From Dysosmobacter acutus (lineage in GTDB: Bacteria; Bacillota; Clostridia; Oscillospirales; Oscillospiraceae): a stretch of DNA of 64,000 nucleotides. Position numbers and translations under genes: made by a program. The notes under the pieces were generated by a model, which saw only the letters and a list, made by a program, of their open reading frames with translations, searched no databases and had not been told where the DNA came from. Where the stretch lies: contig NZ_JAHLQN010000001.1 in NCBI RefSeq assembly GCF_018919205.1, positions 2,976,001 through 3,040,000 on the forward strand, given 5' to 3'. Shown here one piece after another: positions 596 to 16,315 of this stretch. Position 1 is the first letter of the stretch. The number at the start of each line of letters is the position of its first letter.

Positions 596-672
<77 letters not shown>

Positions 673-877: not shown

Positions 878-2266
878 TTACCCTGCGTGCAAAAGGGCTT
901 TCAGTTGGCGGGCAAGTTCGGGATTTTCCTGAAGCTGTGCAAGAAGCGACTGGAGGTTTAGGTCGGGAGCCGGTTCCGGTTTCGGCGGATTCAGTTCCTG
1001 CTCCACGCGCCGCATATCCGGGTTCGCATAGAATGCGACCTCAAACTTCTGCGCGTTGATTTTCCGCTCCTCATCCAGAATATGCGCATAAACTTCTGTA
1101 ACCATAGACGCCTGCGCATGGCCGGTATCCCCCTGCGTGGCCTTAATGTCACCATGATTGAGCTTCAGCTTATAGGTGGTGCTTGAGTGCCGCAAAGAAT
1201 GAAAGACTACATTCGGGAGGTTCGCTGACTTTTTCAGCCGTTCAAACTGATTCCCGATTACCCTGTCTTCGCAGGGCCGCCCGGTTTCCAAAGCTAAAAC
1301 AAGATTATAGTCGGCATACTCGTCACCCATAATTTCTTTGAGCTTGTCCTGCTTTTGATGCCAGTCCCGAAGAATATACGCAAGGGTCTTCGGCAGCCAT
1401 ACCTTCCGGATACTGGTTTCCGTCTTAGGTCGTTTGAGCACAAGCCGTGTTGTCGATTTGGCTTTCACGATCCGCGGGAACATAAAGATGATGTCTTTCT
1501 CTCCGAGCGCGTCAATCGCACGTTGATCGACACGCGCTAATTCCTTGTTGACAATGATATGGGCATCGTCTTTTGCAATGTCCGAATCGGAAATGTGAAC
1601 ACAATCCCATGTCAGCCCTGTGATCTCGCCCATGCGCAGTGAACAGGCGAACGAAAGGTTGATTGCAACATACAGTTTCCCCTCAGAGCAGTTATCCAGA
1701 GCCTGTCTGATAATGTCAGCCGTCCAGATAGCGCGAGGATTTTTCTCTTTCTTGGGAAGAAGAACATCGTCAAACGGATTCTTCGGAACCATATCCCATC
1801 GGACGGCCTGGCGGAAAGCGCAGTGCAGCACCTTGCACACTTTTTCAATCGTGTTGGGCGGCAAGAATTCCGAGCGTGCGTTTCGGTATGTTGTGCTGAC
1901 GGGTTTCATCTTTTGCAGTTGGGCGATGAAGCTGTCTACGGTACGCCTTGTCACATCCTGGACATTCATATCGCCAATGACTGGATTGATGTAATTGTTG
2001 ATGATCCCGGTGTTTCCAGAGTAGGCTGAAAGCCCCCACCGCTTTGAACCGTAGAGTTCAACAAAATCTGCCAGGAAGTCACGGACAGTTACGCTGGATG
2101 GCGGAATGAAGGTTCCGTTGTTCATTTCATTCTCTACCTGTGCTTTTCTGGCCGCAGCCTCCTTCTTTGTTCCATAGGTTTCCCACTTCTGCCTTTTGAC
2201 ATCGGCAGAATCCGTATAGGTATATACGACGGCATACTTTTTACCGCGTTTTTGAATTGATGCCAT
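878..2266 (-). CDS. tyrosine recombinase/integrase of Tn916 type
   Basis: A 462-residue site-specific recombinase that would integrate and excise the element. The N-terminal ~60 residues form the AP2-like arm-binding domain of Tn916 family integrases (KKYAVVYTYTDS, then a KKEAAARKAQVE helix). The catalytic domain shows Arg211 (SLRMGE), a beta-hairpin Lys near 281, HSLR (His356, Arg359), His383 in GDTGH and the nucleophile Tyr393 in EVYAHIL, so all expected residues are present. About 65 unusual Pro/Glu/Leu-rich residues extend past the tyrosine. It lies 15 bases downstream of the excisionase gene in one operon. Its 3' end faces the tRNA-Arg, suggesting that tRNA is the attachment site. Confidence 0.95.
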   Translation of the reverse strand: MASIQKRGKKYAVVYTYTDSADVKRQKWETYGTKKEAAARKAQVENEMNNGTFIPPSSVTVRDFLADFVELYGSKRWGLSAYSGNTGIINNYINPVIGDMNVQDVTRRTVDSFIAQLQKMKPVSTTYRNARSEFLPPNTIEKVCKVLHCAFRQAVRWDMVPKNPFDDVLLPKKEKNPRAIWTADIIRQALDNCSEGKLYVAINLSFACSLRMGEITGLTWDCVHISDSDIAKDDAHIIVNKELARVDQRAIDALGEKDIIFMFPRIVKAKSTTRLVLKRPKTETSIRKVWLPKTLAYILRDWHQKQDKLKEIMGDEYADYNLVLALETGRPCEDRVIGNQFERLKKSANLPNVVFHSLRHSSTTYKLKLNHGDIKATQGDTGHAQASMVTEVYAHILDEERKINAQKFEVAFYANPDMRRVEQELNPPKPEPAPDLNLQSLLAQLQENPELARQLKALLHAG

Positions 2267-2904: not shown

Positions 2905-3336
2905 TTGCCCGTAAATGAGTTTTGCGCAATTTCCCTTTGGGCATAGGTCAATGATCTGTGTGTGGAGCAATCCACCTGCGCACGTTGTCAGGTTTGTACG
3001 TTTTTGTCAGTAGTATTGCTGTGCCATGAAAGCCGGCTGCTGCTGGCTTTTTTGTTTTACGGGGCACCGTCCCATACTGCGGGAATGACGAGAGTTTGCT
3101 GTCAGGCAAACATACTGGATTTTACCAGAATCGTTGTTCCCGCTTTTTTGCGCCCAAATGCCGAAAGGCTTTGAGGATATATCATCAAGAAAGGTGGAAA
3201 CAAGAAATGAAATTCAGACGAAAATGGAAACCCGGAGGACATCATAGACGTTCCTTCCGACCGTACCACAGGTACAGAGAGAAGCGGCTTTTGAATAAGC
3301 CGCGTATCAAATATGAAACCGAGGAGGAATGCATCC
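2905..3336 (+). other. long leader of the rightward operon, containing an intrinsic terminator
   Basis: About 430 bases lie between the promoter at 2876 and the nuclease start at 3337. The stretch holds a terminator-like hairpin (3028-3055) and one weak small open frame (3207-3398). The arrangement could allow attenuation or antitermination. No known riboswitch class was recognised. Confidence 0.4.
3028..3055 (+). terminator. intrinsic terminator in the operon leader
   Basis: Hairpin AAGCCGGC-TGCT-GCTGGCTT (one G-T pair) followed by a run of six Ts. It lies inside the leader and would stop transcripts from the promoter at 2876 unless read through. Confidence 0.6.
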
Positions 3337-3398
3337 ATGGAAAACGCAAAGTGTTACGCTCCGCAAATTCTCGTCGGTACAGAAGGTCTGCCGCGTGA
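3207..3398 (+). CDS. possible small, very basic protein overlapping the nuclease start
   Basis: A 63-residue frame starting MKFRRKWKPGGHHRRS and rich in Arg, Lys and His. AAGGTGG lies about 10 bases before the ATG. It overlaps the first 62 bases of the YqaJ-type nuclease gene in another frame. It could be a leader or DNA-binding peptide, or chance. Codon pattern alone does not decide it. Confidence 0.25.
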   Translation: MKFRRKWKPGGHHRRSFRPYHRYREKRLLNKPRIKYETEEECIHGKRKVLRSANSRRYRRSAA

Positions 3399-4389
3399 AC
3401 AATGGCTGGAATACCGGCGCAAGGGCATCGGCGGAAGTGACGCCGCTGCCGTTCTCGGAATTTCACCATTCCGTACCGGGCGGGATCTCTACTATGACAA
3501 GCTGAATATCGTCACAGCGGATGATGCCGAAAACTGGGTCCAGTTGGAGGTTGGAACTCTGCTGGAGCCACTGGTTGCCAAGATCTTCGCTCATAAGACG
3601 GGCTATAAGATCTACCGCCGGCCTTTCATGTTCCGGCATCCCCAATATCCTTGGATGCTGGCGGATCTGGATTACATGGTGGAGCTGCCGGACGGTACAT
3701 CAGCCATCCTTGAGATCAAAACCACGAATTATAACGCCAAGGATAACTGGTGGTACAACGGCGAGGAAATCGTTCCTATCTACTACGAATCGCAGGGGCG
3801 GCACTACATGGCGGTCATGAACATTGACCGGGTCTACTTCTGCTGCCTTTACGGAAATTCGGAAGACGAGGCGATGATCCGCCGTATCGACCGTGACATG
3901 GCCTATGAAGAAGAACTGATTGCTTTGGAACGGGACTTCTGGGAGAATCATGTCCTCACAAAAACGCCGCCTCCCTATGTGGAAGCGGACGGTGACCTGA
4001 TCCTCGAAAGCCTGCGGCGAAAGATAGGACCGGCGGACAAGGACGCGCCGCCTGTGCTGTTGGGACAGACACAGTTTGGGCAGCTGTCCATGCTTCTTTC
4101 CCTGCAAGAGAAGAAAAAGACGTTGGCGGCTGAAGTGAACAAGCTGGAAAAGGACATTAAACGGCTGAAGGGTATGCTCATCGAGAAAATGGGCACAAGC
4201 TGCACCGCCGTGTATAACGGTTCTGCGGAGAGCTACACCATAACCTACAATCCGGTACGCTCCGCAGGCATATCGAAGGACGCCTTAGAGCGTTTGAAGG
4301 ACGAACACCCTGATATTTACGATCAGTATGTCACGGTGTCTGAATGGCGAAGATTCCATGTGAAAAAAGCTGCTTTGCAGGCAGCGTGA
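3337..4389 (+). CDS. YqaJ-family viral recombinase nuclease
   Basis: A 350-residue protein of the YqaJ/lambda-exonuclease PD-(D/E)XK fold, a 5'-3' exonuclease that makes single strands for recombination. Visible signatures: GIGGSDAAAVLGISPF near the N terminus, LEVGTLLEPLVAKIF (first acidic helix), and the catalytic core DLDYMVELPDG...AILEIKTT. A C-terminal coiled coil (KKKTLAAEVNKLEKDIKRLKG, in part) follows, as in phage members. The start at 3337 has GAGGAGG ten bases upstream. It precedes the helicase by 22 bases. Phage-type recombination normally pairs this nuclease with an annealing protein; the 6768 product is a candidate. Confidence 0.88.
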   Translation: MENAKCYAPQILVGTEGLPREQWLEYRRKGIGGSDAAAVLGISPFRTGRDLYYDKLNIVTADDAENWVQLEVGTLLEPLVAKIFAHKTGYKIYRRPFMFRHPQYPWMLADLDYMVELPDGTSAILEIKTTNYNAKDNWWYNGEEIVPIYYESQGRHYMAVMNIDRVYFCCLYGNSEDEAMIRRIDRDMAYEEELIALERDFWENHVLTKTPPPYVEADGDLILESLRRKIGPADKDAPPVLLGQTQFGQLSMLLSLQEKKKTLAAEVNKLEKDIKRLKGMLIEKMGTSCTAVYNGSAESYTITYNPVRSAGISKDALERLKDEHPDIYDQYVTVSEWRRFHVKKAALQAA

Positions 4390-4411: not shown

Positions 4412-6700
4412 GTGAGCATTGTTGCAGCACTGGACAAGGTACTGTTTTTCAATGCGTCCAGCAAATATTCTGTCCTTCGGATGAAAACGGAGGACAGCAG
4501 CGTACCCACAGAGGCCCGGAGTCCCTATCGCTATCACGACCACCTGATCCGCTTTACCGCCGTCGGCATCGAATTGCCGCAGACGGATACGGTGAAGATC
4601 GAGATGGATGGAGAGTGGAAGGACGGAAAATACGGGCTTCAGCTTCAGGTCGATCATTGGCAGGAGATCGTGCCGCCCACATTGGAGGGCGTCCGCAATT
4701 ATCTTGCCTCCGGTCTGCTGAAGGGCATCGGAGAAAAGACCGCCGACGCGATCATTGAAAAGTTTGGCATCAATGCTCTGGAGATTCTGGAACATCAGCC
4801 AGACCGGCTTCTTGAGATTCGCGGCATTACGAAGGAACGGCTTGCAGAGATCAAGGACGCCTATGCGGAAACCAGCCGGATGCGTGTCCTGATGACCCTG
4901 CTGGCCCCGTTCAAGGTCACGCCGACGACCGCGCAGAAGATTTATCAGCATTTCGGCCCTTCCTGTGCGGACATCGTGAGACAGAGTCCCTTCAATCTCT
5001 GCCAGGTGCCGGGATTCGGTTTTAAGCGTATTGACGCCATCGTGCAAAAATCCGGTGGAGATCTGCGTGATCCGAAGCGCGTCCACGGTGCGCTCTTTTA
5101 TGCGCTGGAGGACGCACGGACAAAGGACGGGCATCTCTATCTGGAGGCGGAGGCTTTGCTGAAAGCGGCTATGCAGCTGCTCAATGAGCGGATACCCCTC
5201 CCGCAGATGCGCGTCCCCATGAGCCAGGTCGAACAGGAGCTGTCTGCCATGATCCGGCAGGATGAGGTGGTATCGAACCACGGCAATGTGTATCTGCCCA
5301 AGCAATTCCTGCAGGAGAGCGAAACCGCACAGAAAGCGGTAGAGCTGTTTCTGGCAAAGCCGACGGTGGTGGACATTACGCAGCCGTTGGAGCGAGTAAA
5401 GAATAGCTTAGGGCTCAACCTGTCCAAACGCCAGTCAGAAGGCGTGGAGATGGTGTTCCGGCATAACCTGTCCATCATCACAGGCGGCCCCGGCACCGGC
5501 AAGACCACTGTTCTGAAAACGGTGATCGAGGTGTACCGTCAGCTCTATCCACGGCAGAAGATCGTACTCGGAGCGCCCACAGGTAAGGCGAGCCGGCGTA
5601 TGGCGGAGGCAACGGGGATCGATGAAGCACAGACGCTCCACAGCATCCTGGGGCTTCACGGTGATTCGGAATCCAAGAAAGACCGGGAACGGAAACCGCT
5701 GGAGGCAGGGCTCCTGATCGTGGATGAGACTTCCATGGTCGATATGTGGCTGATCCACCAGCTCTTTTCGCGTTTGCGTCCCGGAACCAAAGTCCTTTTG
5801 GTCGGTGACGCGGACCAGTTAGAGAGTGTGGGCGCCGGTGACGTATTTCACGAGCTGATCGGCTCCGGCGTTGTGCCAGTCACGGTGCTGGATGAGATCT
5901 TCCGTCAGGCACAGGACAGCCTGATCGCCCACAATGCCCGGTTTATCAACGAGGGTAAAACGACGCTCTACTATGGTGAGGACTTTGCCTTTCATAAGGC
6001 AGAGAGCCAGGAGGAGACTGCCGGCATCATCCGTGAGCTGTATCAGGAGCAGATCGCCGCAAAAGGGATCGAGCAGGTGGAGATTTTATCGCCGTTCCGC
6101 TCTGAGGGCGAGGCATCGGTCAACAGCCTGAATGAAGCTATCCGCGAGGAGATCAACCCCGCATCGCCGGACACACCGGAGATCGTGTACGCCGGAAAGA
6201 TATTCCGCCTCAATGACCGCGTGATGCAGATGCGGAATAATTACGACATCAAGCTGTATGACCGCTCCGGCAAGCAGGTCGGCGAGGGTGTTTTCAACGG
6301 TGACATCGGCACGATCCGCAAGATCAGCGGTACCAATGTCGTGATCGAGTTTGACGGCCGCTATATGGATTGCCCGCAGGTGCTTCTGGATGATTTGGAG
6401 TTGTCCTATGCCATTACGATCCACAAATCTATGGGCTCAGAGTATGATACGGTCATTATTCCACTGCTGGCTGCCCATAATGTGCTCCTGACGCGGAATC
6501 TTCTCTATACGGCCATCACCCGTGCCAAGCGGCGGGTGCTGCTGGTGGGTGAAAAAAGGGCGCTGTATATGGCGATCCATCGGAGCCGAAAAGGAAAACG
6601 CAATACCATGCTGGGCGAACGCATCGCCCTCTACTATAAGGCGGTCACGCGCAAGGCCCTCCGCAGCGAAGAGGGCGAGGAATGGCAGCGTGCCAGTTAA
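4412..6700 (+). CDS. RecD2-like ATP-dependent DNA helicase
   Basis: A 762-residue superfamily 1B helicase of the RecD2/RecD-TraA group. An N-terminal OB-like region is followed by helix-hairpin-helix repeats (GLLKGIGEKTADAIIEKFG, then ALEILEHQPDRLLEIRGI), as in RecD2. The motor has Walker A GGPGTGKT near residue 360, Walker B LLIVDETSMVD, motif III VGDADQLESVGAG, and the C-terminal UvrD-like motifs AITIHKSMGSEYDTVI and LLYTAITRAKRRVLLVG. Start is GTG with GGAGGTGATG upstream. It probably unwinds DNA 5'-3' during element replication or recombination, together with the YqaJ nuclease upstream. Confidence 0.92.
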   Translation: MSIVAALDKVLFFNASSKYSVLRMKTEDSSVPTEARSPYRYHDHLIRFTAVGIELPQTDTVKIEMDGEWKDGKYGLQLQVDHWQEIVPPTLEGVRNYLASGLLKGIGEKTADAIIEKFGINALEILEHQPDRLLEIRGITKERLAEIKDAYAETSRMRVLMTLLAPFKVTPTTAQKIYQHFGPSCADIVRQSPFNLCQVPGFGFKRIDAIVQKSGGDLRDPKRVHGALFYALEDARTKDGHLYLEAEALLKAAMQLLNERIPLPQMRVPMSQVEQELSAMIRQDEVVSNHGNVYLPKQFLQESETAQKAVELFLAKPTVVDITQPLERVKNSLGLNLSKRQSEGVEMVFRHNLSIITGGPGTGKTTVLKTVIEVYRQLYPRQKIVLGAPTGKASRRMAEATGIDEAQTLHSILGLHGDSESKKDRERKPLEAGLLIVDETSMVDMWLIHQLFSRLRPGTKVLLVGDADQLESVGAGDVFHELIGSGVVPVTVLDEIFRQAQDSLIAHNARFINEGKTTLYYGEDFAFHKAESQEETAGIIRELYQEQIAAKGIEQVEILSPFRSEGEASVNSLNEAIREEINPASPDTPEIVYAGKIFRLNDRVMQMRNNYDIKLYDRSGKQVGEGVFNGDIGTIRKISGTNVVIEFDGRYMDCPQVLLDDLELSYAITIHKSMGSEYDTVIIPLLAAHNVLLTRNLLYTAITRAKRRVLLVGEKRALYMAIHRSRKGKRNTMLGERIALYYKAVTRKALRSEEGEEWQRAS

Positions 6701-6767: not shown

Positions 6768-7829
6768 ATGTCCAGAGAAAGAATCATGCTGACCCAGGCA
6801 ATCCCCGCCGTACAGCAGCTTCGCAGGGTGCAGGGCTTTGACCCGCTGCGCTTTCTGAAAAGAAATGCCAGTGGCGGAATCGAACTGGAGCCGCGCTATC
6901 AGCGGCTCTGGTTCCGATTGGCCTGCCCCGATGGAAAAATGCTGCTGAACCGGCTGCGGATCACAGACCAAATCGCCGTTTATGAGGCGCAGGTATTTCT
7001 GTCCAGAGAGGATAACCAGCCAATCGCCAATTTCACCGCGGCGGTGGAAAAGGCGCAGGCTCCCGCCGGACGCTATGTGCAGGCCGCGCAGGACGCGGCG
7101 CTGAAAACGGCACTGGACAATGCGGGCTTCGGCATCCAGCTTTGTGAGATCAACCCCTCTGCGGCGGTAGATGCACAGGTCGATGGAAAACAGGAAGTCG
7201 CAACGGGCGCTGTAAATCGTCAGGAGACTGCTCCGGCGGCAAATAGAGCCGCAGCGCCGCAGCGAGAAGATGCTATCGGCGAAAGTCATCCGGTACAGGC
7301 AGTGCCTACACCGCAGAAGGTTCAACCGCAGGAGGCGGCAAAGACGCCCAGCGTAAAGCCGCAGGTGGTTCCCCCCACCCAGCAGACGGAAAGCGTTTCA
7401 GACGCCATGAGTCTGCTGCAGGCGTTAAGCGGCGGAACTGCGGCTTCTGAGCCTGATCCGGTTATGCCCCAAAAGGCGCAGGAGGTTCCTTCGGAAACAG
7501 CGGAGCCTGCTGTCATGGAGCGGGCTGAAACAGCGCGGACGTTGAAGCCTGTCGTGGTCGATATGCCGGCAGCGGCATCGACAGCGGCTGCACCGAAATA
7601 TTCGGACGATATGACGGTGGACGAGATCCTTTCGCTGATGACGGAAGAGGAAGCTGCGGAGCTGGTCGTGACTACCGGCGTCAATAAGGGCTGGACGATG
7701 GCACAGGTTTCTGAGCAGCGTCCCTCCAGTCTGAAATATTACGCCTATCTCTGTGAGGACTGCGGCAATATTGTGAAAGCCGCCGCCATGCTTCTGATGG
7801 GCGGTTCGCAGCAGTTAAAGGCAAGCTGA
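6768..7829 (+). CDS. unknown protein; possible single-strand annealing-type N-terminal domain
   Basis: 353 residues in three parts. Residues 1-125 are a folded domain with AVYEAQVFLSREDNQPIANF and GRYVQAAQDAALKTALDNAG, which resembles the 'GYVE-AETSAIGRAL-AGFG' pattern of Rad52/Erf-like annealing proteins; this resemblance is by eye and weak. Residues 130-270 are low-complexity Ala/Pro/Gln/Glu. Residues 275-353 (MTVDEILSLMTEEEAAELVV) form a separate helical domain with two cysteines (CEDCG). RBS AAGGGAG precedes ATG 6768. Position between nuclease/helicase and primase suggests DNA replication or recombination. Confidence 0.55.
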   Translation: MSRERIMLTQAIPAVQQLRRVQGFDPLRFLKRNASGGIELEPRYQRLWFRLACPDGKMLLNRLRITDQIAVYEAQVFLSREDNQPIANFTAAVEKAQAPAGRYVQAAQDAALKTALDNAGFGIQLCEINPSAAVDAQVDGKQEVATGAVNRQETAPAANRAAAPQREDAIGESHPVQAVPTPQKVQPQEAAKTPSVKPQVVPPTQQTESVSDAMSLLQALSGGTAASEPDPVMPQKAQEVPSETAEPAVMERAETARTLKPVVVDMPAAASTAAAPKYSDDMTVDEILSLMTEEEAAELVVTTGVNKGWTMAQVSEQRPSSLKYYAYLCEDCGNIVKAAAMLLMGGSQQLKAS

Positions 7830-7873: not shown

Positions 7874-9565
7874 TTGCATTACGGGAAAAAGCATGATCTC
7901 CCCTTTGGTATTATGGATGTGGCCGGGCTCCTCCGCCTGAATATCAGGCGGAGGGCTCCCGGTCAGGTGTACGTGGATTGCCCCATCTGCGGTGACCGCC
8001 GGGGGAAAATGAATCTGAACACGGGAAAAGACCTGTGGCGCTGTAACTACTGCGGTGAAGGCGGCGGAATGCTGTCCCTTTACGCAAAGGTGTATGGCGT
8101 CAGCAATTCTGACGCTTATCGGGAGATCTGCGACGCTTTGGCGGTAAACGGTTTTTCACCGGACTATACCGTTCCAGAGAAGACGACGCCTGCGGAGGCC
8201 GAGCAGTCTGACGCGGCCTCTGTTCAGGAAGTGCATCAGACTCTCTCCATGCTGTTGTCCATGCTGACCCTCATTCCGGCGCACCGCACACACCTTCAGT
8301 CTGTGCGGGGGCTGTCCGACGATGAGATTACGCGCTTTGGCTTCAAGAGCACGCCGCCCCCTTTCCTGTGCCGCTCCCTGACCAATCGGTTGGTCAAGGC
8401 GGGCTGCAGGGTGCAGGGTGTTCCCGGCTTCTATGTGGATGATAACGGCTGCTGGACGGTCAAATTCCACCAGCGGACATCAGGCATCATCATTCCCATC
8501 TTCGGTGTAGACGGTCTGATCCACGGCGCACAGATCCGATTGGATCATCCGCTCAAGGATAAAGACGATCCACCGGAGAAAACGGGCGTGAAATACCTGA
8601 CGCTGTCCTCCACGGGAAAGCGCATGGGAACGACCTCGGGGAGCCCCATTCATTTTGTGGGCGACCCCTGCTCCCGCGTTGTATATGTGACGGAAGGCTG
8701 CCTCAAGGCGGATGTCGCTCACGCGCTGATGCACAGGACTTTTGTTGCCACACTGGGCGTTAACAATACCGCCAAGCTGGATGGACTGTTTGCGTTCCTG
8801 CACCGAAACGGAACGGAGGAGATCATCGAGGCGGAGGACATGGATAAATACAGCAATGAAATGGTGGAGAAAGGCGCATCGAAGATTTATGCGCTGGCGG
8901 CCAGGCACGGGATGCGCTGCCGCAGGCTCACGTGGAATCCTAATTACAAGGGCATTGATGACTGGCAGCTTGCGCTGCGCCGCAAAGAACAGAAAATGAA
9001 GGAGGATCCAGGAATGACATTTAAGGAGCAATATCTTAATGGCCTATGCGGGCTGGAAATGCTGGAAACCTGTACGGAAAAATGGCATGCGATGAAGGTG
9101 GACAGTATTTCCTTACGGGACTATCTGGGGCTGACAGAGCAGGAATACGATGCGTACTTACAGACTACCCCCGGCGTTTCTTTTCAGGAGCTGCTGGACA
9201 GTCAGCGCAAAACGCAGCGCTTTCGTGTTTATCAGTTGGATCTGGAGCATGGCGAGACGCGCGCATTCGCCTTTGGCGGCATTGACGCGCTGCACAAGGC
9301 TGGCTTTCAGCAGCCGCCGGCGGCGGAATACACACTCGTTTACGACGGTGAACTGATCTGCCCCGTCGGGCAAGATGAACGTGATATTCTGGAGCGCATT
9401 TTTGCACGCTATAATCAGGCGCTTCCCCCGGACTATCACGGCCGCAGCATCGCGCCCTCTGATGTGCTGGAATTGTATGATGAAAGCGAGCGCAGATATT
9501 TTTACTGTGATATGGCCGGATTTGTGCAGGTGAAATTTTCACCCGCGCTGGCAAAGAAGGCATGA
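7874..9565 (+). CDS. primase-like protein: CHC2-type zinc finger, TOPRIM-like core and C-terminal YodL domain
   Basis: 563 residues. A DnaG-type zinc-binding domain (residues 30-70) has CPICG and CNYCG separated by the expected loop. The centre contains VVYVTEGCLKADVAHALM and EAEDMDKYS, matching the Glu and Asp-x-Asp signatures of TOPRIM/DUF3854 primase-like domains. Residues ~445-560 (RFRVYQLDLEHGETRAF through RRYFYCDMAGFVQVKF) are a YodL domain, otherwise found in mobile-element proteins. Start is TTG at 7874 with GGGAGGG upstream; a later ATG at 7915 is an alternative. No separate RNA-polymerase core domain was seen, so priming activity is not certain. Confidence 0.8.
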   Translation: MHYGKKHDLPFGIMDVAGLLRLNIRRRAPGQVYVDCPICGDRRGKMNLNTGKDLWRCNYCGEGGGMLSLYAKVYGVSNSDAYREICDALAVNGFSPDYTVPEKTTPAEAEQSDAASVQEVHQTLSMLLSMLTLIPAHRTHLQSVRGLSDDEITRFGFKSTPPPFLCRSLTNRLVKAGCRVQGVPGFYVDDNGCWTVKFHQRTSGIIIPIFGVDGLIHGAQIRLDHPLKDKDDPPEKTGVKYLTLSSTGKRMGTTSGSPIHFVGDPCSRVVYVTEGCLKADVAHALMHRTFVATLGVNNTAKLDGLFAFLHRNGTEEIIEAEDMDKYSNEMVEKGASKIYALAARHGMRCRRLTWNPNYKGIDDWQLALRRKEQKMKEDPGMTFKEQYLNGLCGLEMLETCTEKWHAMKVDSISLRDYLGLTEQEYDAYLQTTPGVSFQELLDSQRKTQRFRVYQLDLEHGETRAFAFGGIDALHKAGFQQPPAAEYTLVYDGELICPVGQDERDILERIFARYNQALPPDYHGRSIAPSDVLELYDESERRYFYCDMAGFVQVKFSPALAKKA

Positions 9566-9575
9566 GTATGCTGCG

Positions 9576-9821
9576 ATGGAGAAACAAAGAAAGGAATCTC
9601 TTGAAGCGGTATTACAGCTTTGCGGGAATTTAGGCGCAGAGATACGGTATCATCCGGAACACCGTTATTTCACAGCTATGGTCTGGACTGGCTGGGATAC
9701 GCCCTGCGGAATGGGTGAGGCCCTTGCCATTCAACAGGAAATTCAAAGAACGGCTGCTCAGTATCCGACTGTTGTGTGCTACTGCTTCGACCCATTCAGC
9801 ACACTGGTCTACACGGTCTGA
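9576..9821 (+). CDS. small protein of unknown function
   Basis: 81 residues beginning MEKQRKESLEAVLQLCGNLG, with an aromatic, cysteine-containing C-terminal half (VVCYCFDPFSTLVYTV). It starts 10 bases after the primase-like gene and ends just before a strong terminator, so it is the last gene of that transcript. No family recognised. Confidence 0.6.
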   Translation: MEKQRKESLEAVLQLCGNLGAEIRYHPEHRYFTAMVWTGWDTPCGMGEALAIQQEIQRTAAQYPTVVCYCFDPFSTLVYTV

Positions 9822-9833
9822 GCCAAGTATGTA

Positions 9834-9874
9834 AAAAGGACGCCTTGTGCCATTGGCACAGGAGCGTCCTTTTC
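9834..9874 (+). terminator. intrinsic terminator
   Basis: Long hairpin with arms AAAAGGACGCC and GGAGCGTCCTTTT and an inner stem TGTGCC/GGCACA, ending in a T run. It sits between the 9576 gene and the PcfK-like gene, so the downstream genes may have another promoter or be attenuated. Confidence 0.75.
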
Positions 9875-9901
9875 AAAATTTTATTTAGGAGGAATGTACG
9901 A

Positions 9902-10741
9902 ATGGGCGCTTTTTCAAATGTGGATTACGAGCTTCAAAATAATGAGGCTGCCGTTTCCAACGCCTTTATGGAAGATGATGATATGGATATGCCGCAGACG
10001 GTCCCCGCGGAGCCAGCAACAGGCAGTTTCCCGCCGGACACAGAACTGGCTCCGGCCACAGCGGTCAGCGAACCGTCGGCCGTCTCCGACACCCAAAGTG
10101 AGGACGAGGCCCGCCGTGCGCACGAAGCGGCTGAAGCCAAGCGCAAGGCAGAATGGGACGCCAGGCAGGCAGAAAAGCAGCGGGCGGAACAGGCTGCATT
10201 GGAAAAGTTGGATGCCATGAGCCCGGCTGAACTGCTCAAGGCTGCCGCAAAGCGCGTGTCCGCAGATACGGAAAAGCTGACACGGCGCAACATGAAAGAA
10301 AGCGTTTCCGAGTTTATCCAGACCAAGTGCATTGATGACCTCGATTTTGCACGGCTTACCATGCACCCACGCAAAAGCATGATCCACTGTTTCCAATACA
10401 TCAGCCGGAAGGCATGGGATTATGTGCAGGACGAGCTGAAGGCAAACGGCGTTCAGCCGGGCCCCGGTCAGCAGGCATACGGCTGCGATATTCCCGACGA
10501 TCTCTGCTATCAGTGGGCGGAGGACTATTTCCGTGACCCCGATGCCAAGGAGGATCAGGGGGATGAAGAGAAGTTTGTCCCGCAGCCCTATCGTGGGAAA
10601 ACATCTTCCAAGTCCGTTTCCAAGAAGAAAAAGGAAGAAAAGAAGAACAAGCCGGAGAAGAAGGAACCGCCGAAAAAAGCGGAAGCCGACGATGGGCAGA
10701 TCTCGCTGGGAGACCTCTCCTCTTTTGGGGAGGCAGCCTGA
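9902..10741 (+). CDS. PcfK-like protein
   Basis: 279 residues. The N-terminal ~110 residues are acidic and Ala/Glu/Lys-rich coiled coil (RRAHEAAEAKRKAEWDARQA). The middle (residues ~115-235) carries SPAELLKAAAKRVSAD, FIQTKCIDDLDFARLTMHPR and AWDYVQDELKANGVQPG, features I associate with PcfK-like proteins of conjugative elements. The C terminus is a Lys/Glu-rich tail. Start at 9902 is fixed by TAGGAGGA. It lies two genes before a PcfJ-like gene, the expected partner. Molecular role of the family is not established. Confidence 0.65.
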   Translation: MGAFSNVDYELQNNEAAVSNAFMEDDDMDMPQTVPAEPATGSFPPDTELAPATAVSEPSAVSDTQSEDEARRAHEAAEAKRKAEWDARQAEKQRAEQAALEKLDAMSPAELLKAAAKRVSADTEKLTRRNMKESVSEFIQTKCIDDLDFARLTMHPRKSMIHCFQYISRKAWDYVQDELKANGVQPGPGQQAYGCDIPDDLCYQWAEDYFRDPDAKEDQGDEEKFVPQPYRGKTSSKSVSKKKKEEKKNKPEKKEPPKKAEADDGQISLGDLSSFGEAA

Positions 10742-11289
10742 TGTACGCTTATAAAGGCTTTGAGCCGGATCTCTCCTGCCGTGGCTATCGGTTCGTCATG
10801 GGAAAGAATGTCACCCCGGAGGCAAACTGCGCCAGCAACGGTTTTCACTGTGCGGAGAATCCGCTGGATTGTCTCACCTATTACAGCGATATGGATCGCT
10901 CCATTTACTGCTTGGTGCAGCCCGGCGGGGATATTGACGAGGACGATCGTGACTCCAAAATTGCCTGCACAGAGCTGACGATCCTGCGGCAGCTGACGAG
11001 GAAAGAATTCTTTCTTCATGCACTTGCCTACATGGTGGATCACCCATGCCGCAAGGTAAGCGGCAAGGTACAGCGTGAGCACAGCACCAGCCGCAACGGC
11101 TATGCCATCGTTCGAGGCAAGGAACCCGCTGCGTGTGGAAAGCTGGGCGATATTCTCGCATTTGCCAGAGAGCGGCGTGAAACCGAAGTAATCTGTCAGA
11201 TTGCTGTTGCCGAAGTAGATGGAGAAAAAATCCAGCCCGGAGTATGGTATGACATTGATTTTGTGAAAAGAGAGGCGGTGCAGAAATGA
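10741..11289 (+). CDS. unknown protein between PcfK-like and PcfJ-like genes (DUF7666-like)
   Basis: 182 residues, start overlapping the previous stop by one base and its stop overlapping the next start (ATGA), so translation is coupled. It begins MYAYKGFEPDLSCRGYRFVM and includes GFHCAENPLDCLTYY, a pattern seen in phage and element proteins annotated DUF7666; assigned from memory. It contains several Cys and His residues but no clear metal site. Likely acts with its PcfK/PcfJ-like neighbours. Confidence 0.55.
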   Translation: MYAYKGFEPDLSCRGYRFVMGKNVTPEANCASNGFHCAENPLDCLTYYSDMDRSIYCLVQPGGDIDEDDRDSKIACTELTILRQLTRKEFFLHALAYMVDHPCRKVSGKVQREHSTSRNGYAIVRGKEPAACGKLGDILAFARERRETEVICQIAVAEVDGEKIQPGVWYDIDFVKREAVQK

Positions 11290-13463
11290 AAAAAAGCAGT
11301 TTGCTGAAAATGAAGAATTTGCCTGCGACTGAAGAAATGCTTGCGGTGGCCCGCGAGGATGTCCCGGTCAAGGTCGGTTCGGGCTGGAACACTTCCTATC
11401 GATGCCGATACAGCGGTTTTGCACGAAGCGCGGTAGAGGGCGGCATTTTGAAGGTCACCCTGTATGACCCGGATGCAATGCGCCTTGGTGGGACGCTGCC
11501 GGTCTATGAGATTTTCATGGAGAAAGAAAAGCAGCAGTTTCTCACCTATGACCGTGCCCATGACAAATGGAGGACGGCAAAGATCGACTACTTGGAATGG
11601 CAGGCGAAGGGATCCAATAACGTATGGATCAGCGCCGTGGATGATGCGCAGATCCGGCAATATCTGGTGTCGGATGAAAAAAACGTATATCGGGCTATTC
11701 TGAAATTTCAGCGCGCCGTTCGTGATGCTGAACTGGAACGTCGGCATAGAAAGGAAACCGATCCGTGGGACGCGGAGCTCTCTCAGACGCCGCCGCTGCC
11801 GAAAGACTGGGAACGGTGGGTCAATAAGGTGGGTATTCAGGAAAACTACATCTTCTATGATTACCGCAAGGGCGGGGCAAGGTACGGCTACTGCACCTAT
11901 TGTGAAAAGGAAGTCGCACTGAAACAGCGGCCCTATCATAACGCGGTGGGAAAGTGCCCGAGATGCCGTCATAAGATCACGTTCAAGGCGAAAGGGAAAA
12001 TAACGGACTATCTGCACTCCCCAACAGAATGCGCATACCTGGCGCAGAAGTGCGGAGACGGGTTTGTGATTCGCCAATTTCAGGTGAGCAGGCAGTACCG
12101 GAAAGAAGAGAACACCATCACATCGAAAACCTCCAGCTTTGAGAAGCAGCGTATTTTCTACCGTGCGGATCTGTCTTCACATTCGTATTACTGGGGCTGG
12201 TACAAACAGCGCCGCACCCGATGGGTGGAGGGCATCGATGAGTTCGTCTACACGGGTATGGGCTATTCCTACAACGAGTATTGTTATCAGCCGGGGAGCA
12301 TCTATGGAAAAACGTTTTCCAGCATTGCCCCACTTCTTGCAAGAACCGGATTGAGGGAGTATGTAAGACTTTGCCGGGGCTGTGTAAGCCCCAACTGGTA
12401 CCTGTTTGCGTGGGGGTGGTTTCCACGCGTTGAGCAGATCTGCAAAGCCAATCTTCCGCGGCTGACCACGGAGTGCTTGGAAGATTTCGGAGCCGTAAAA
12501 AGCTGTATTCGGCAGGAGTCCGAAACCAGTCTTGTCAAGGCATTGGCGCTTGATACGAACCGGCTTTCGCGGCTCCGGACACTCAACGGCGGCACCATTA
12601 TGCTCGACTGGCTGCAGCGTGAGAAATGCAGCGGCAGAATCATCCCGGATCATGTGCTGCGCTGGCTGGAGCAGGAGAAGATCCATGTTTCCGATATCGA
12701 CTTCATTTTGAATCGAATGTCGGAGCAGCAGGTCTGCAACTACCTTCAGCGTCAGAAAAGCGGCACGCGGGATACCCTGCGGCAGATTATTTCCACGTGG
12801 CGGGATTACCTTTCCATGGCGGACAAGCTGGGAATCAACACCAACGATGAGATCGTATACCGTGTCAAGCTGCTGCGCCAGCGTCACGATGAACTGGTGG
12901 AACAGCTGCGGAAAAGAGAACGGGACATGGAAGCTGCCGCAACAGCAAGAAAGTATCGGAAAATTGCAGGCATCTGCCGCTTGATCAAACCGAAATACGA
13001 ATACACCGGCGAGGTGTATTCCATCGTTGTTCCGTCAGGTGTACGCGATATTATGCGCGAGGGCGATGCGCTTTCCCACTGTGTCGGCAAGTCAGACCGC
13101 TATTGGGAGCGCATCGAGCAGCAGGAGGCATATATCCTGTTCCTACGCAAGACCGCAGAGATCGACAAGCCGTACTACACCCTTGAGGTGGAGCCAAACG
13201 GCACAATACGGCAGAAACGGACCTACTTTGACCGACAGAACGATGACCTCAAGGACGCAGAGATGTTCCTGAAGGAATGGCAGAAGGTTGTCTCCGAGCG
13301 CTTGACAGAGAGCGACCGGGAAAAAGCGGAAAAGAGCAAGGTCCTTCGCCTGCAGGAATTCGAGCAGCTGCGGCAGGATGACATTCGTATCCATACCGGC
13401 GACCTTGCCGGTCAGCGGCTGGTGGATGTTCTGGTGTCGGATCTCATGGAAACCGCGGCCTAA
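11286..13463 (+). CDS. PcfJ-like protein
   Basis: 725 residues. Residues ~198-240 contain a four-cysteine zinc-finger-like cluster (CTYCEKE...CPRCRHK). The PcfJ signature is at residues ~580-655: PSGVRDIMREGDALSHCVG, then YWERIEQQEAYILFLRKT and PYYTLEVEPNGTIRQKRT. Charged helices surround it. PcfJ genes are common in conjugative plasmids and integrative elements next to PcfK; biochemical function is unknown. Translation is coupled to the upstream gene by an ATGA overlap. Confidence 0.8.
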   Translation: MKKSSLLKMKNLPATEEMLAVAREDVPVKVGSGWNTSYRCRYSGFARSAVEGGILKVTLYDPDAMRLGGTLPVYEIFMEKEKQQFLTYDRAHDKWRTAKIDYLEWQAKGSNNVWISAVDDAQIRQYLVSDEKNVYRAILKFQRAVRDAELERRHRKETDPWDAELSQTPPLPKDWERWVNKVGIQENYIFYDYRKGGARYGYCTYCEKEVALKQRPYHNAVGKCPRCRHKITFKAKGKITDYLHSPTECAYLAQKCGDGFVIRQFQVSRQYRKEENTITSKTSSFEKQRIFYRADLSSHSYYWGWYKQRRTRWVEGIDEFVYTGMGYSYNEYCYQPGSIYGKTFSSIAPLLARTGLREYVRLCRGCVSPNWYLFAWGWFPRVEQICKANLPRLTTECLEDFGAVKSCIRQESETSLVKALALDTNRLSRLRTLNGGTIMLDWLQREKCSGRIIPDHVLRWLEQEKIHVSDIDFILNRMSEQQVCNYLQRQKSGTRDTLRQIISTWRDYLSMADKLGINTNDEIVYRVKLLRQRHDELVEQLRKRERDMEAAATARKYRKIAGICRLIKPKYEYTGEVYSIVVPSGVRDIMREGDALSHCVGKSDRYWERIEQQEAYILFLRKTAEIDKPYYTLEVEPNGTIRQKRTYFDRQNDDLKDAEMFLKEWQKVVSERLTESDREKAEKSKVLRLQEFEQLRQDDIRIHTGDLAGQRLVDVLVSDLMETAA

Positions 13464-13510
13464 GCCGCAATACAACATATTTGAACGAAAGAAAGGAAAC
13501 TATACAGAAA

Positions 13511-13867
13511 ATGAAAAACGGATTTACGATCACGCAGCGCAACGCTGTGGTGGAACAGCATCTTTGGTGCATTGACACGGTCGTGGCGCAGTACGCCGCG
13601 TTTATGCAGACAGAACCCGTAGACCCCGATGATGTGTACCAGTCTTTGGCGGTACGCCTGATCCGGGCAGTCAACAGCTACGATCCCCGTAAAGGGTATC
13701 TGAAGGAGTACATCCTCTCTCAGCTCAAGCGAGAGATGGTTCGTATCCGGAGTACGCAGGCTGTCTATGGACTGACGCAGGCGCCGGCCAATATCGGCAG
13801 CACCATTGTTCCGCTCACGATTGCGGCACAGCGGGAATCGTACTGGGAAACCTATATTGCTGTATAA
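13511..13867 (+). CDS. sigma-70 region-2-like protein
   Basis: 118 residues. The segment DDVYQSLAVRLIRAVNSYDP followed by KGYLKEYILSQLKREMVR resembles sigma region 2 (the 'DLxQxGxxGLxxAxxxFDPxKGxxFxTY' pattern), preceded by a helix with HLWCIDTVVAQYAAF. There is no region 4, so it is either a truncated sigma factor or an element-borne regulatory relative. ATG at 13511 has GAAAGGAAA about 12 bases upstream. Confidence 0.55.
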   Translation: MKNGFTITQRNAVVEQHLWCIDTVVAQYAAFMQTEPVDPDDVYQSLAVRLIRAVNSYDPRKGYLKEYILSQLKREMVRIRSTQAVYGLTQAPANIGSTIVPLTIAAQRESYWETYIAV

Positions 13868-13883
13868 AAGGAGTCATGTGAAA

Positions 13884-14078
13884 ATGAAACAGTTGGGAAA
13901 CCTCGCGGTTATTTGTGCCCAACGCCCGGAGCTGCTGATGCAGCTCCGGAGCGGTCTGGTCTTGGTACAGGCAAAAAACCGTGCGGCGATGGAGGCCGCA
14001 TGGAACGATGATACGCGGATCGAAAAGATGATCTATGAACTGAACTTCGGAGCATTCTCCAAGGAAAGGCTGGTGTAA
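13884..14078 (+). CDS. small protein of unknown function
   Basis: 64 residues, MKQLGNLAVICAQRPELLMQ through NFGAFSKERLV, mostly helical. AAGGAGT sits about 10 bases before the ATG, and the gene ends three bases before the ligA start, so it belongs to the same transcript. No family recognised. Confidence 0.55.
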   Translation: MKQLGNLAVICAQRPELLMQLRSGLVLVQAKNRAAMEAAWNDDTRIEKMIYELNFGAFSKERLV

Positions 14079-14081
14079 GGA

Positions 14082-16103
14082 ATGGAGCAGAGCATGCAGC
14101 AGAGAATACGGGAATTGACCGACCGGCTGAACCGCTGCCGGTATGAATAGTACAATCTCAACGCACCGTCTCTGACAGACGCCGAATATGACGCGCTTTT
14201 TGATGAACTGAGTACGTTGGAAAAGCAAACCGGCTTCAGCATGACGAACTCGCCCACGCAGACGGTAGGCTGCTATCCCGCTGTCAGCGCCTTGGTGAAA
14301 ACAGTGCATCCGATTCCGCTGCTGTCGTTGGATAAAACGAAGAGCAGTGCGGAGCTTCTGCGCTTTGCGGGAGAGCAGATGGTCATGCTGATGCTCAAGC
14401 TGGACGGCCTGACGGTAAAGCTGACCTATGAAAATGGCCTTTTGATGGAGGCCGCTACCCGCGGCGATGGAGATACAGGTGAGAACATTACTCATAATGT
14501 GCTGGGGATCTCCGGCATCCCGGATAAGATCCCGTACAAGGAACGGCTGGTCGTTACCGGCGAAGCATTTATCCGTCCCAGCGATTTTGAGGCGTTAAAG
14601 GATAAGCTGCGGGACGGAAATGGCGAACCGTATAAAAACGGGCGCAATCTGGCTGCCGGCTCTGTCCGACTGCTGGACTGCGGCGCCTGCAAGGATCGCC
14701 GTGTGACCTTTATGGCTTTCAATGTGCTGGAGGGCTTTGAGGAATATCCCTGGAAGTCGCAGCGGCTTCGAGCCATCGAACAGCTCGGCTTTCCCATCTG
14801 CAAGTATCTGGCGAGCAAGCAGGCGTTGACGCAGTTCGATATGGACGCCGGTATCCGGCACCTGCGGAAATACGCGCAGGAAACCGACATACCTATCGAT
14901 GGCATCGTGGTCACCTACAACGATGCATCCTACGCAAAGTCCTGCGGACGGACCGGGCATCACTATAAGGACGGGTTGGCGTTCAAGTTTGAGGACGACA
15001 CCTATGAAACCGTCCTACGTTCGATTGAATGGACGCCCAGCCGCACAGGGGAAATTGCTCCGGTAGCCATCTTTGACACGGTGGAGATCGACGGCTGCGC
15101 GGTATCCAGAGCGAGCCTTCACAACCTCTCTTTCATTGAGAATCTGGAGCTGGCGCCGGGGTGCCGCATCAAGGTGAGCAAGCGCAATCAGATCATTCCC
15201 CATGTGGAGGAAAATCTGGACAGAGACTGCTACGCCAGAGAGAAGGTCGTTCCTGCCAGATGCCCATGCTGTGGGCATCCTACCCGTATCCATACGACCA
15301 GAAACACTGTGAACGGGGAGGAAAAGGTCACGGCGGCGCTGTTCTGCGATAATGAGCAGTGCGAAACGCGGAAGCTGCGCAAGTTCGTCCACTTTGCAAG
15401 CCAGAAGGCGATGAATATCGTGGGATTGTCTGAAGCAATTCTGGAAAAATTCATTGGAAAGGGCTGGCTCCACTCCTATATGGACATCTTCTTTTTGGAC
15501 AAACACAGGTCGGAGATCGTTCAGATGGAGGGCTTTGGGGTGAGATCCTGGCAAAATCTTTGGGACGCCATCCAGCACAGCCGCATTACCACCTTTGAGC
15601 AGTATCTGACCGCTATGGATATTCCCATGGTGGGCAGCACAGCCAGCAAAGCTATCTGCCAAAGGTTCCGCGGAAACCTTGCGGAATTTGAAACGGCCGT
15701 GTGCCAGAGCTTTGATTTTACACAGCTCCCGGACTTCGGAGAAACGCTGCACAGGAATATCCATCAATGGTTCCACAGCGAGGAAAACTGGACGATCTGG
15801 ACGGAGCTGCGGAGGTTGGTTTGCATTAAGACCTATCAGCCGCCTGCGGCCAGCACCGATATGGGCAATCCCTTTGTCGGAAAGACCCTTGTGGTGACCG
15901 GCAAAGTTGAGCCATACACCCGCGATGGGATCAACGGAAAAATTGAATCTCTGGGCGCTCATGCCGGCAGCTCGGTGAGCAGCAAGACAGATTATCTGAT
16001 CTGCGGCGAGAACGCCGGAAGCAAGCTGGCAAAGGCACAGGAGCTTGGAATCAAGATTCTGTCGCCAGATGAGTTCTTCCGCATGGCAGGAGAAAGTGCA
16101 TAA
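14082..16103 (+). pseudogene. ligA: NAD-dependent DNA ligase, interrupted by an in-frame TAG at codon 23
   Basis: The frame from ATG 14082 to 16103 encodes a 673-codon LigA, full family length. Codon 23 (14148-14150) is TAG in the Ia domain, just where family members read 'YEYYxLDxPSxxDAEYD'. The rest is intact: catalytic lysine in LKLDGLTVKL, TRGDGDTGENIT, OB fold, Cys4 zinc finger (CPCCG...CDNEQCETR), helix-hairpin-helix repeats and a C-terminal BRCT domain (GKTLVVTGKVEPYTR). Restart after the TAG (TTG 14217 or ATG 14238) would lose the NMN-binding Ia motif. It may be inactive, or produce a nick-binding, ligation-deficient protein. Neighbouring genes use TAG as a real stop, so recoding is unlikely. 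Confidence 0.85.
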
Positions 16104-16137: not shown

Positions 16138-16240
16138 AACTATACAGAGAACTTGGGGTACTGCGGTGAAAAGCAAAATATAAGGCTGTGGTAAAAGAAA
16201 GAGCGTATCCAGAGAATATTTGACGGTAATTATAGTGCAA

Positions 16241-16277
16241 AAGCTGGGCAGCGAGTTTCCTCGCCGCCCAGCTTTTT
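16241..16277 (+). terminator. intrinsic terminator of the rightward operon
   Basis: Arms AAGCTGGGCAGCGA and TCGCCGCCCAGCTT (one mismatch) followed by TTTT. It lies between the convergent ligA and 16316 genes; the A-rich upstream side means it could also act leftward. Confidence 0.75.
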
Positions 16278-16315
16278 TAGGTAATGAACTGCGGTTGCCC
16301 CCCATTTGGGGCAGC

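Follow-up and report, generated by a model that had tools for sequence, protein, structure and literature searches.

The accessory gene for an NAD+-type DNA ligase (ligA) on a mobile element of Dysosmobacter acutus is interrupted by an in-frame TAG, probably as the result of a recent nonsense mutation that cost the element a dispensable ligase. One base substituted in a tyrosine codon would have created the TAG and ended the protein after 22 residues. The stop is a real but ordinary finding and the TAG matters little by itself; the altered adenine pocket of the ligase lineage to which the gene belongs is the more interesting point. We refer to the whole stretch of DNA analysed (64,000 nucleotides, positions 2,976,001 to 3,040,000 of contig NZ_JAHLQN010000001.1) as the window. 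The features of the ligase gene in the window are as follows:

14082..16103, + strand: accessory ligA frame, interrupted (translation; Pfam DNA_ligase_aden, OB and BRCT; TIGR00575)
14082..14147, + strand: 22-codon remnant 5' of the stop (translation; no Pfam match)
14148..14150, + strand: in-frame TAG at the tyrosine codon of the relatives, E. coli LigA position 22 (translation; tyrosine in 90/90 readable loci)
14217..16103, + strand: longest ORF downstream of the stop, TTG start, 628 aa, without most of domain Ia
14391..14405, + strand: MLKLD of motif I, residues 104-108, with Met at the Glu113 position and the catalytic Lys and Asp kept
14898..14915, + strand: DGIVVT, residues 273-278, with Thr (14913-14915) at the Lys290 position

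Translation of the ligA frame yields 22 residues, the TAG (codon 23), 650 residues and a TAA, with no second internal stop between 14082 and 16103. This confirms the stop reported in the first-pass annotation, which had also claimed that the ligase domains are kept beyond it. The part after the stop does match the Pfam models DNA_ligase_aden, OB and BRCT above their cut-offs; the HhH model falls below its cut-off and the Pfam zinc-finger model gives no match, though four zinc-finger cysteines are present. The same part scores 489 bits against NCBIfam TIGR00575 (cut-off 444.45) and 505.2 against NF005932 (cut-off 369). Among solved structures the closest match is E. coli LigA 2owo (E 8.2e-97), and the equivalents of the NTase residues Lys115, Asp117, Gly118, Glu173, Arg200, Asp285 and Lys314 are all present. 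Extending the numbering of the 2owo alignment backwards places the stop in domain Ia at E. coli LigA position 22, which we take to be Tyr22, an NMN contact. The translated product of a LigA gene is expected to include domain Ia and the conserved tyrosine within it; the window copy has TAG at that codon. Judged by its sequence, the window ligA would count as a pseudogene, with an inactivating change in an otherwise homologous gene.

The comparison of codon 23 among homologs, which the first-pass annotation had proposed as a check, covered 110 loci with a LigA match, near-copies and some twice-fetched loci included; four partial loci were unreadable. Where the alignment includes residue 1 (90 loci, the 19 canonical LigAs included), the codon at this position always encodes tyrosine (63 TAT, 27 TAC) and is never TAG. 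The 16 loci in which the alignment starts at residue 8 all carry a YY pair, and codon 23 is TAT or TAC in 23/23 of the relatives listed from genome_contigs. Because a tyrosine codon occupies the site in 90/90 readable relatives, the TAG appears to be private to the window copy. The closest ligase relatives share ∼67-69% protein identity with the window ligase and no near-identical copies were found, so that a strain-level comparison is impossible. A search for close copies in viral contigs gave seven pattern matches, of which none was a relative.

Beyond the stop the gene has not decayed, as had been proposed at first pass: the stop is single, no frameshift is seen, and the window ligase deviates at 0 of 126 columns that are invariant in the other 24 relatives. 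Each of the other sequences shows between 0 and 15 deviations among its 126 to 141 columns in this test, which used 25 sequences that share at least ∼44% identity and were dereplicated at 85% (for their stops, L006 and L021 were excluded beforehand), and which would overlook a few recent changes. Because the window copy deviates at none of these columns, the change would be recent, or an error, or its product would still be in use. We infer that the mutation is real and recent from the single stop, the absence of a frameshift, the invariant columns and the tyrosine in the readable relatives. Against a recent loss stands the fact that decay is seen nowhere but at the stop, which would also fit an error or a product under selection. 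A sequence or assembly error, with a tyrosine codon as the true codon 23 and an intact ligase, is unlikely but deserves some weight: the ligase is undecayed elsewhere, tyrosine is invariant at codon 23 in the readable loci, and the window TAG is known from one assembly only. Such an error would, however, require one base to be substituted at a site that is not in a homopolymer, and the assembly has two contigs and 97.5% completeness, with stops in 0/82 of the ABC-ATPase domain matches of the genome, although these figures are still compatible with one wrong base.

Read-through or recoding of the TAG, yielding a full-length ligase, would also account for a frame that is intact past the stop, and 0/10 element ORFs on the + strand end in TAG. 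The use of TAG as a terminator thus lacks a direct instance within the element, which counts against a mutation; among the minus-strand ORFs of the window (ORFs, not proven genes), 2/18 end in TAG. Other results argue against recoding. The tRNA family RF00005 is matched 57 times in the host genome, and ARAGORN, run on the stretches around these matches only, read 57 tRNAs, none with a CTA anticodon and one for tyrosine, with the anticodon GTA; an odd tRNA unmatched by RF00005 would escape this search. The PylS model TIGR02367 is unmatched in the host genome at E 0.001; in 14 control genomes it gave a weak match in 13 and a match above the cut-off in one. The RNA around the stop (14120-14260) folds no better than shuffled sequences (z +1.21), which leaves no sign of a structured read-through signal. 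TAG stands at codon 23 in 0/90 readable loci and it terminates ligA in 7/26 relatives (L005, L007, L013, L014, L017, L018 and L024). Of the features expected of a recoded gene, neither a suppressor or pyrrolysine tRNA (among the 57 tRNAs read) nor PylS (at E 0.001) was found, and the TAG is not conserved at this site in homologs. We rejected recoding by a suppressor tRNA or by pyrrolysine as unlikely because no CTA tRNA, no PylS match and no RNA structure were found and TAG terminates the ligA of relatives. Low-level leakiness of the stop may occur, but a full-length ligase made by read-through or recoding is very improbable.

The first-pass annotation had offered recency and a role for the truncated product as alternatives, and only the first is favoured by our results. 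In-frame starts past the stop are TTG at 14217 (residue 46), ATG at 14241 (residue 54) and others from residue 71 onwards, so that even the first of these, as had been stated, removes most or all of domain Ia. Passages of PMC5052709 describe domain Ia as required for NAD+ binding and adenylation of LigA, and state that the preadenylylated enzyme acts on DNA with no essential need for it. The stop could accordingly divide a 22-residue leader from a domain-Ia-less ligase fragment with a role of its own, for example in sealing adenylylated nicks or in DNA binding, and the intact downstream frame and the dispensability of domain Ia to the preadenylylated enzyme (same passages of PMC5052709) are consistent with this. 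We nevertheless give such a fragment little credence, since all 26 relatives listed have a start codon upstream of the tyrosine, ribosome-binding sites at 14217 and 14241 are unconvincing by eye, and loss of domain Ia should leave a product unable to take AMP from NAD+ (passages of PMC5052709). The N-terminal ligase part is unrecognisable in L025 and L028, yet both are also damaged by frame changes. Ribosomes restarting downstream would make a product that lacks domain Ia and that should not be adenylylated by NAD+, because of which this copy of the element most likely encodes no functional ligase.

Two circumstances would make the recent loss of the ligase by mutation tolerable: the host retains a canonical LigA that is intact, and polarity would hit no downstream gene of the operon. 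The host LigA is encoded at C1:2050331-2052235, has no internal stop, and carries Glu at the 113 position and Lys at the 290 position. The accessory ligA is the last gene of the element operon, and the stop suggests that the element ligase is dispensable where the host has its own LigA. That the ligase is element-encoded, as read at first pass, is supported by an integrase and by a cassette whose gene order is common to several replicons; the borders of the element were not found. The features of the element and of the region 3' of ligA are as follows:

596..672, + strand: tRNA-Arg (CCT) adjoining the integrase, likely the element edge
878..2266, − strand: tyrosine integrase (Pfam Phage_integrase)
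3313..4389, + strand: YqaJ-like exonuclease (Pfam; syntenic)
4412..6700, + strand: RecD2-like helicase (Pfam; syntenic)
6768..7829, + strand: hypothetical protein (syntenic, mostly partial matches)
7874..9565, + strand: YodL-domain protein with a weak primase zinc-finger match
9776..10741, + strand: PcfK-domain protein (Pfam; syntenic)
10741..11289, + strand: DUF7666 protein
11286..13463, + strand: PcfJ-domain protein
13481..13867, + strand: sigma-70 region 2-like protein (matched in 1/7 syntenic loci, L174)
13806..14078, + strand: small conserved ORF 5' of ligA (syntenic in 6/7 loci)
16239..16278, + strand: intrinsic-terminator-like hairpin and T run 3' of ligA (fold of 16235-16285, −27.7 kcal/mol)

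The hairpin after ligA is absent from the sites of a consensus terminator scan. The gene order from the exonuclease to ligA is kept in seven loci (L048, L049, L050, L172, L173, L174 and L181), which include a Subdoligranulum plasmid record (L048), Vescimonas pMM35_02 (L049) and a gut record deposited as bacteriophage (L050). Among these seven, the DUF7666 gene is unmatched in L049 and L181, the small ORF is unmatched in L181, and the integrase is matched only in L174 and weakly in L181. The pMM35_02 counterpart of the PcfK-domain protein (9776-10741) is annotated as belonging to the Cas9 inhibitor AcrIIA9 family. Around those Lachnospiraceae ligase loci that were long enough to search the cassette is not apparent; there the exonuclease is matched only in L003 and L010 and the gene at 16495-17058 in L012 and L018; these loci count against one cassette for the whole ligase group. 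The 25-base 3' end of the tRNA-Arg occurs a single time in the genome, even when two mismatches are allowed, and so does not mark a far border of the element; within the window, no exact repeat of 590-880 exceeds 13 bases. Just upstream of the tRNA-Arg, at 517-552, lies a second copy of its 5' half (two mismatches in 36 bases), perhaps a relic of an earlier integration.

Damage to the ligase gene is also seen among the relatives. Among 51 loci of at least 43.5% identity aligned from residue 1, two (L006 and L021) contain a single premature stop, and the ligase of L026 and that of L028 change frame. The records of all four are draft or metagenome assemblies, and some of the damage may be error. 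In L026 (4117-4131) and L028 (5660-5674) the frame change coincides in position, at residue 357 of the L023 query protein, and in spacing, which suggests a shared event. We left L025 uncounted, since its genome has a canonical LigA that is likewise split between frames and its sequence is perhaps indel-prone. L167 was not counted either, its extra stretch staying in the same frame, and contig ends truncate L022 and L027. The genome of L025 is that of Eubacterium plexicaudatum ASF492, where the canonical LigA (L217, L230) is spread over two overlapping frames, through sequence error or a real frameshift.

The window ligase lacks two adenine contacts of LigA, having Met at the Glu113 position and Thr at the Lys290 position. 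According to passages of PMC5052709 on E. coli LigA, Glu113 bonds adenine N6 and Lys290 bonds N1, the Lys290 contact is called critical, and the adenine pocket is an inhibitor target. We compared these residues in 104 aligned relatives at least 600 residues long. The canonical LigAs among them number 19, all with <35.5% identity to the window ligase. Both residues are present in 19/19 canonical LigAs and both are missing in the window ligase and the 85 other relatives (85/85), which have Met, Ser or Gly at 113 and Thr, Ser, Arg, Glu and others at 290. The equivalents of Lys115, Asp117, Gly118, Glu173, Arg200, Asp285, Gly286 and Lys314 are kept in 104/104 relatives and that of Arg208 in 103/104. 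Window positions 85 and 87 are Lys in all 86 rows of the lineage, and the canonical 19 have Asp or Asn, and Phe, there; that these lysines replace Glu113 and Lys290 would be a guess from the alignment. In a quick tree with no bootstrap, the 85 relatives and the window ligase lie on the opposite side of one branch (SH-aLRT 100) from the 19 canonical LigAs, and which side is a clade depends on the root. Ligases of this lineage also occur in human gut records deposited as bacteriophage (L050, L051 and L052); a phage structural domain was found in 0/10 proteins checked in L050 and L052, one of which is an integrase.

A strong match to the window ligase was found in 66 other genomes; in 25 of 41 hand-picked from these, the lineage LigA (clade-2, assigned by position) is the only LigA-type match, with residues 113 and 290 read in 23 of the 25 (all but G193 and G257). 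A canonical LigA is also present in 13/41, with Glu and Lys in 13/13, and G299, G762 and G185 (3/41) have two LigA matches each, of which none is demonstrably canonical. In the 17 clade-2 loci that were read, position 113 is Ser in 15 and a gap in two, and position 290 is never Lys. Of ten named loci, nine had a searchable genome, of completeness not given, and a Glu/Lys LigA was not seen in 6/9, intact in two and split over two frames in one. Housekeeping neighbours such as germination protease, citrate synthase and homoserine O-succinyltransferase flank 3/4 of the lineage loci checked; at the remaining locus, L177, a single neighbour was checked, and it carries an RNA-ligase domain. Since it is the only LigA detected in 25/41 hand-picked genomes, the lineage without Glu113 and Lys290 is presumably functional, and we dropped the reading of their loss as the mark of an inactive or element-specific ligase. 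Together with the 6/9 loci, these genomes make the lack of both residues compatible with being the only detected LigA. We tentatively raise the possibility that a large LigA lineage, the sole LigA of many Clostridia, has rebuilt its nucleobase pocket, with Glu113 and Lys290 gone and Lys 85 and 87 nearby in the sequence; it may hold adenine differently or use another dinucleotide as cofactor, and LigA inhibitors that are adenosine analogues may be less effective against it. Bacteria whose sole detected LigA is without Lys290 offer a direct test of whether adenine recognition by LigA can be rewired, and the lineage predicts altered sensitivity to adenosine-type inhibitors.

The window ligase shares with LigA as defined by TIGR00575, NF005932 and E. 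coli 2owo the domain order, the catalytic Lys of KxDG, the four zinc-finger cysteines and the BRCT domain. It differs from the E. coli enzyme in the interruption of its frame at the position of residue 22, and in having Met at Glu113, Thr at Lys290 and Lys at residues 85 and 87. The element LigA of Vescimonas fastidiosa pMM35_02 (WP_228738176.1) is ∼61% identical and has a similar flanking gene order, but its gene is uninterrupted and its element has no match to the DUF7666 and sigma-like genes. The chromosomal LigAs of the lineage (in genomes such as G084 and G249, where no other LigA was detected) likewise lack Glu113 and Lys290 and have Lys at 85 and 87, whereas they share only ∼38% identity with the window ligase and lie beside housekeeping genes, such as that for germination protease, instead of in an element cassette.
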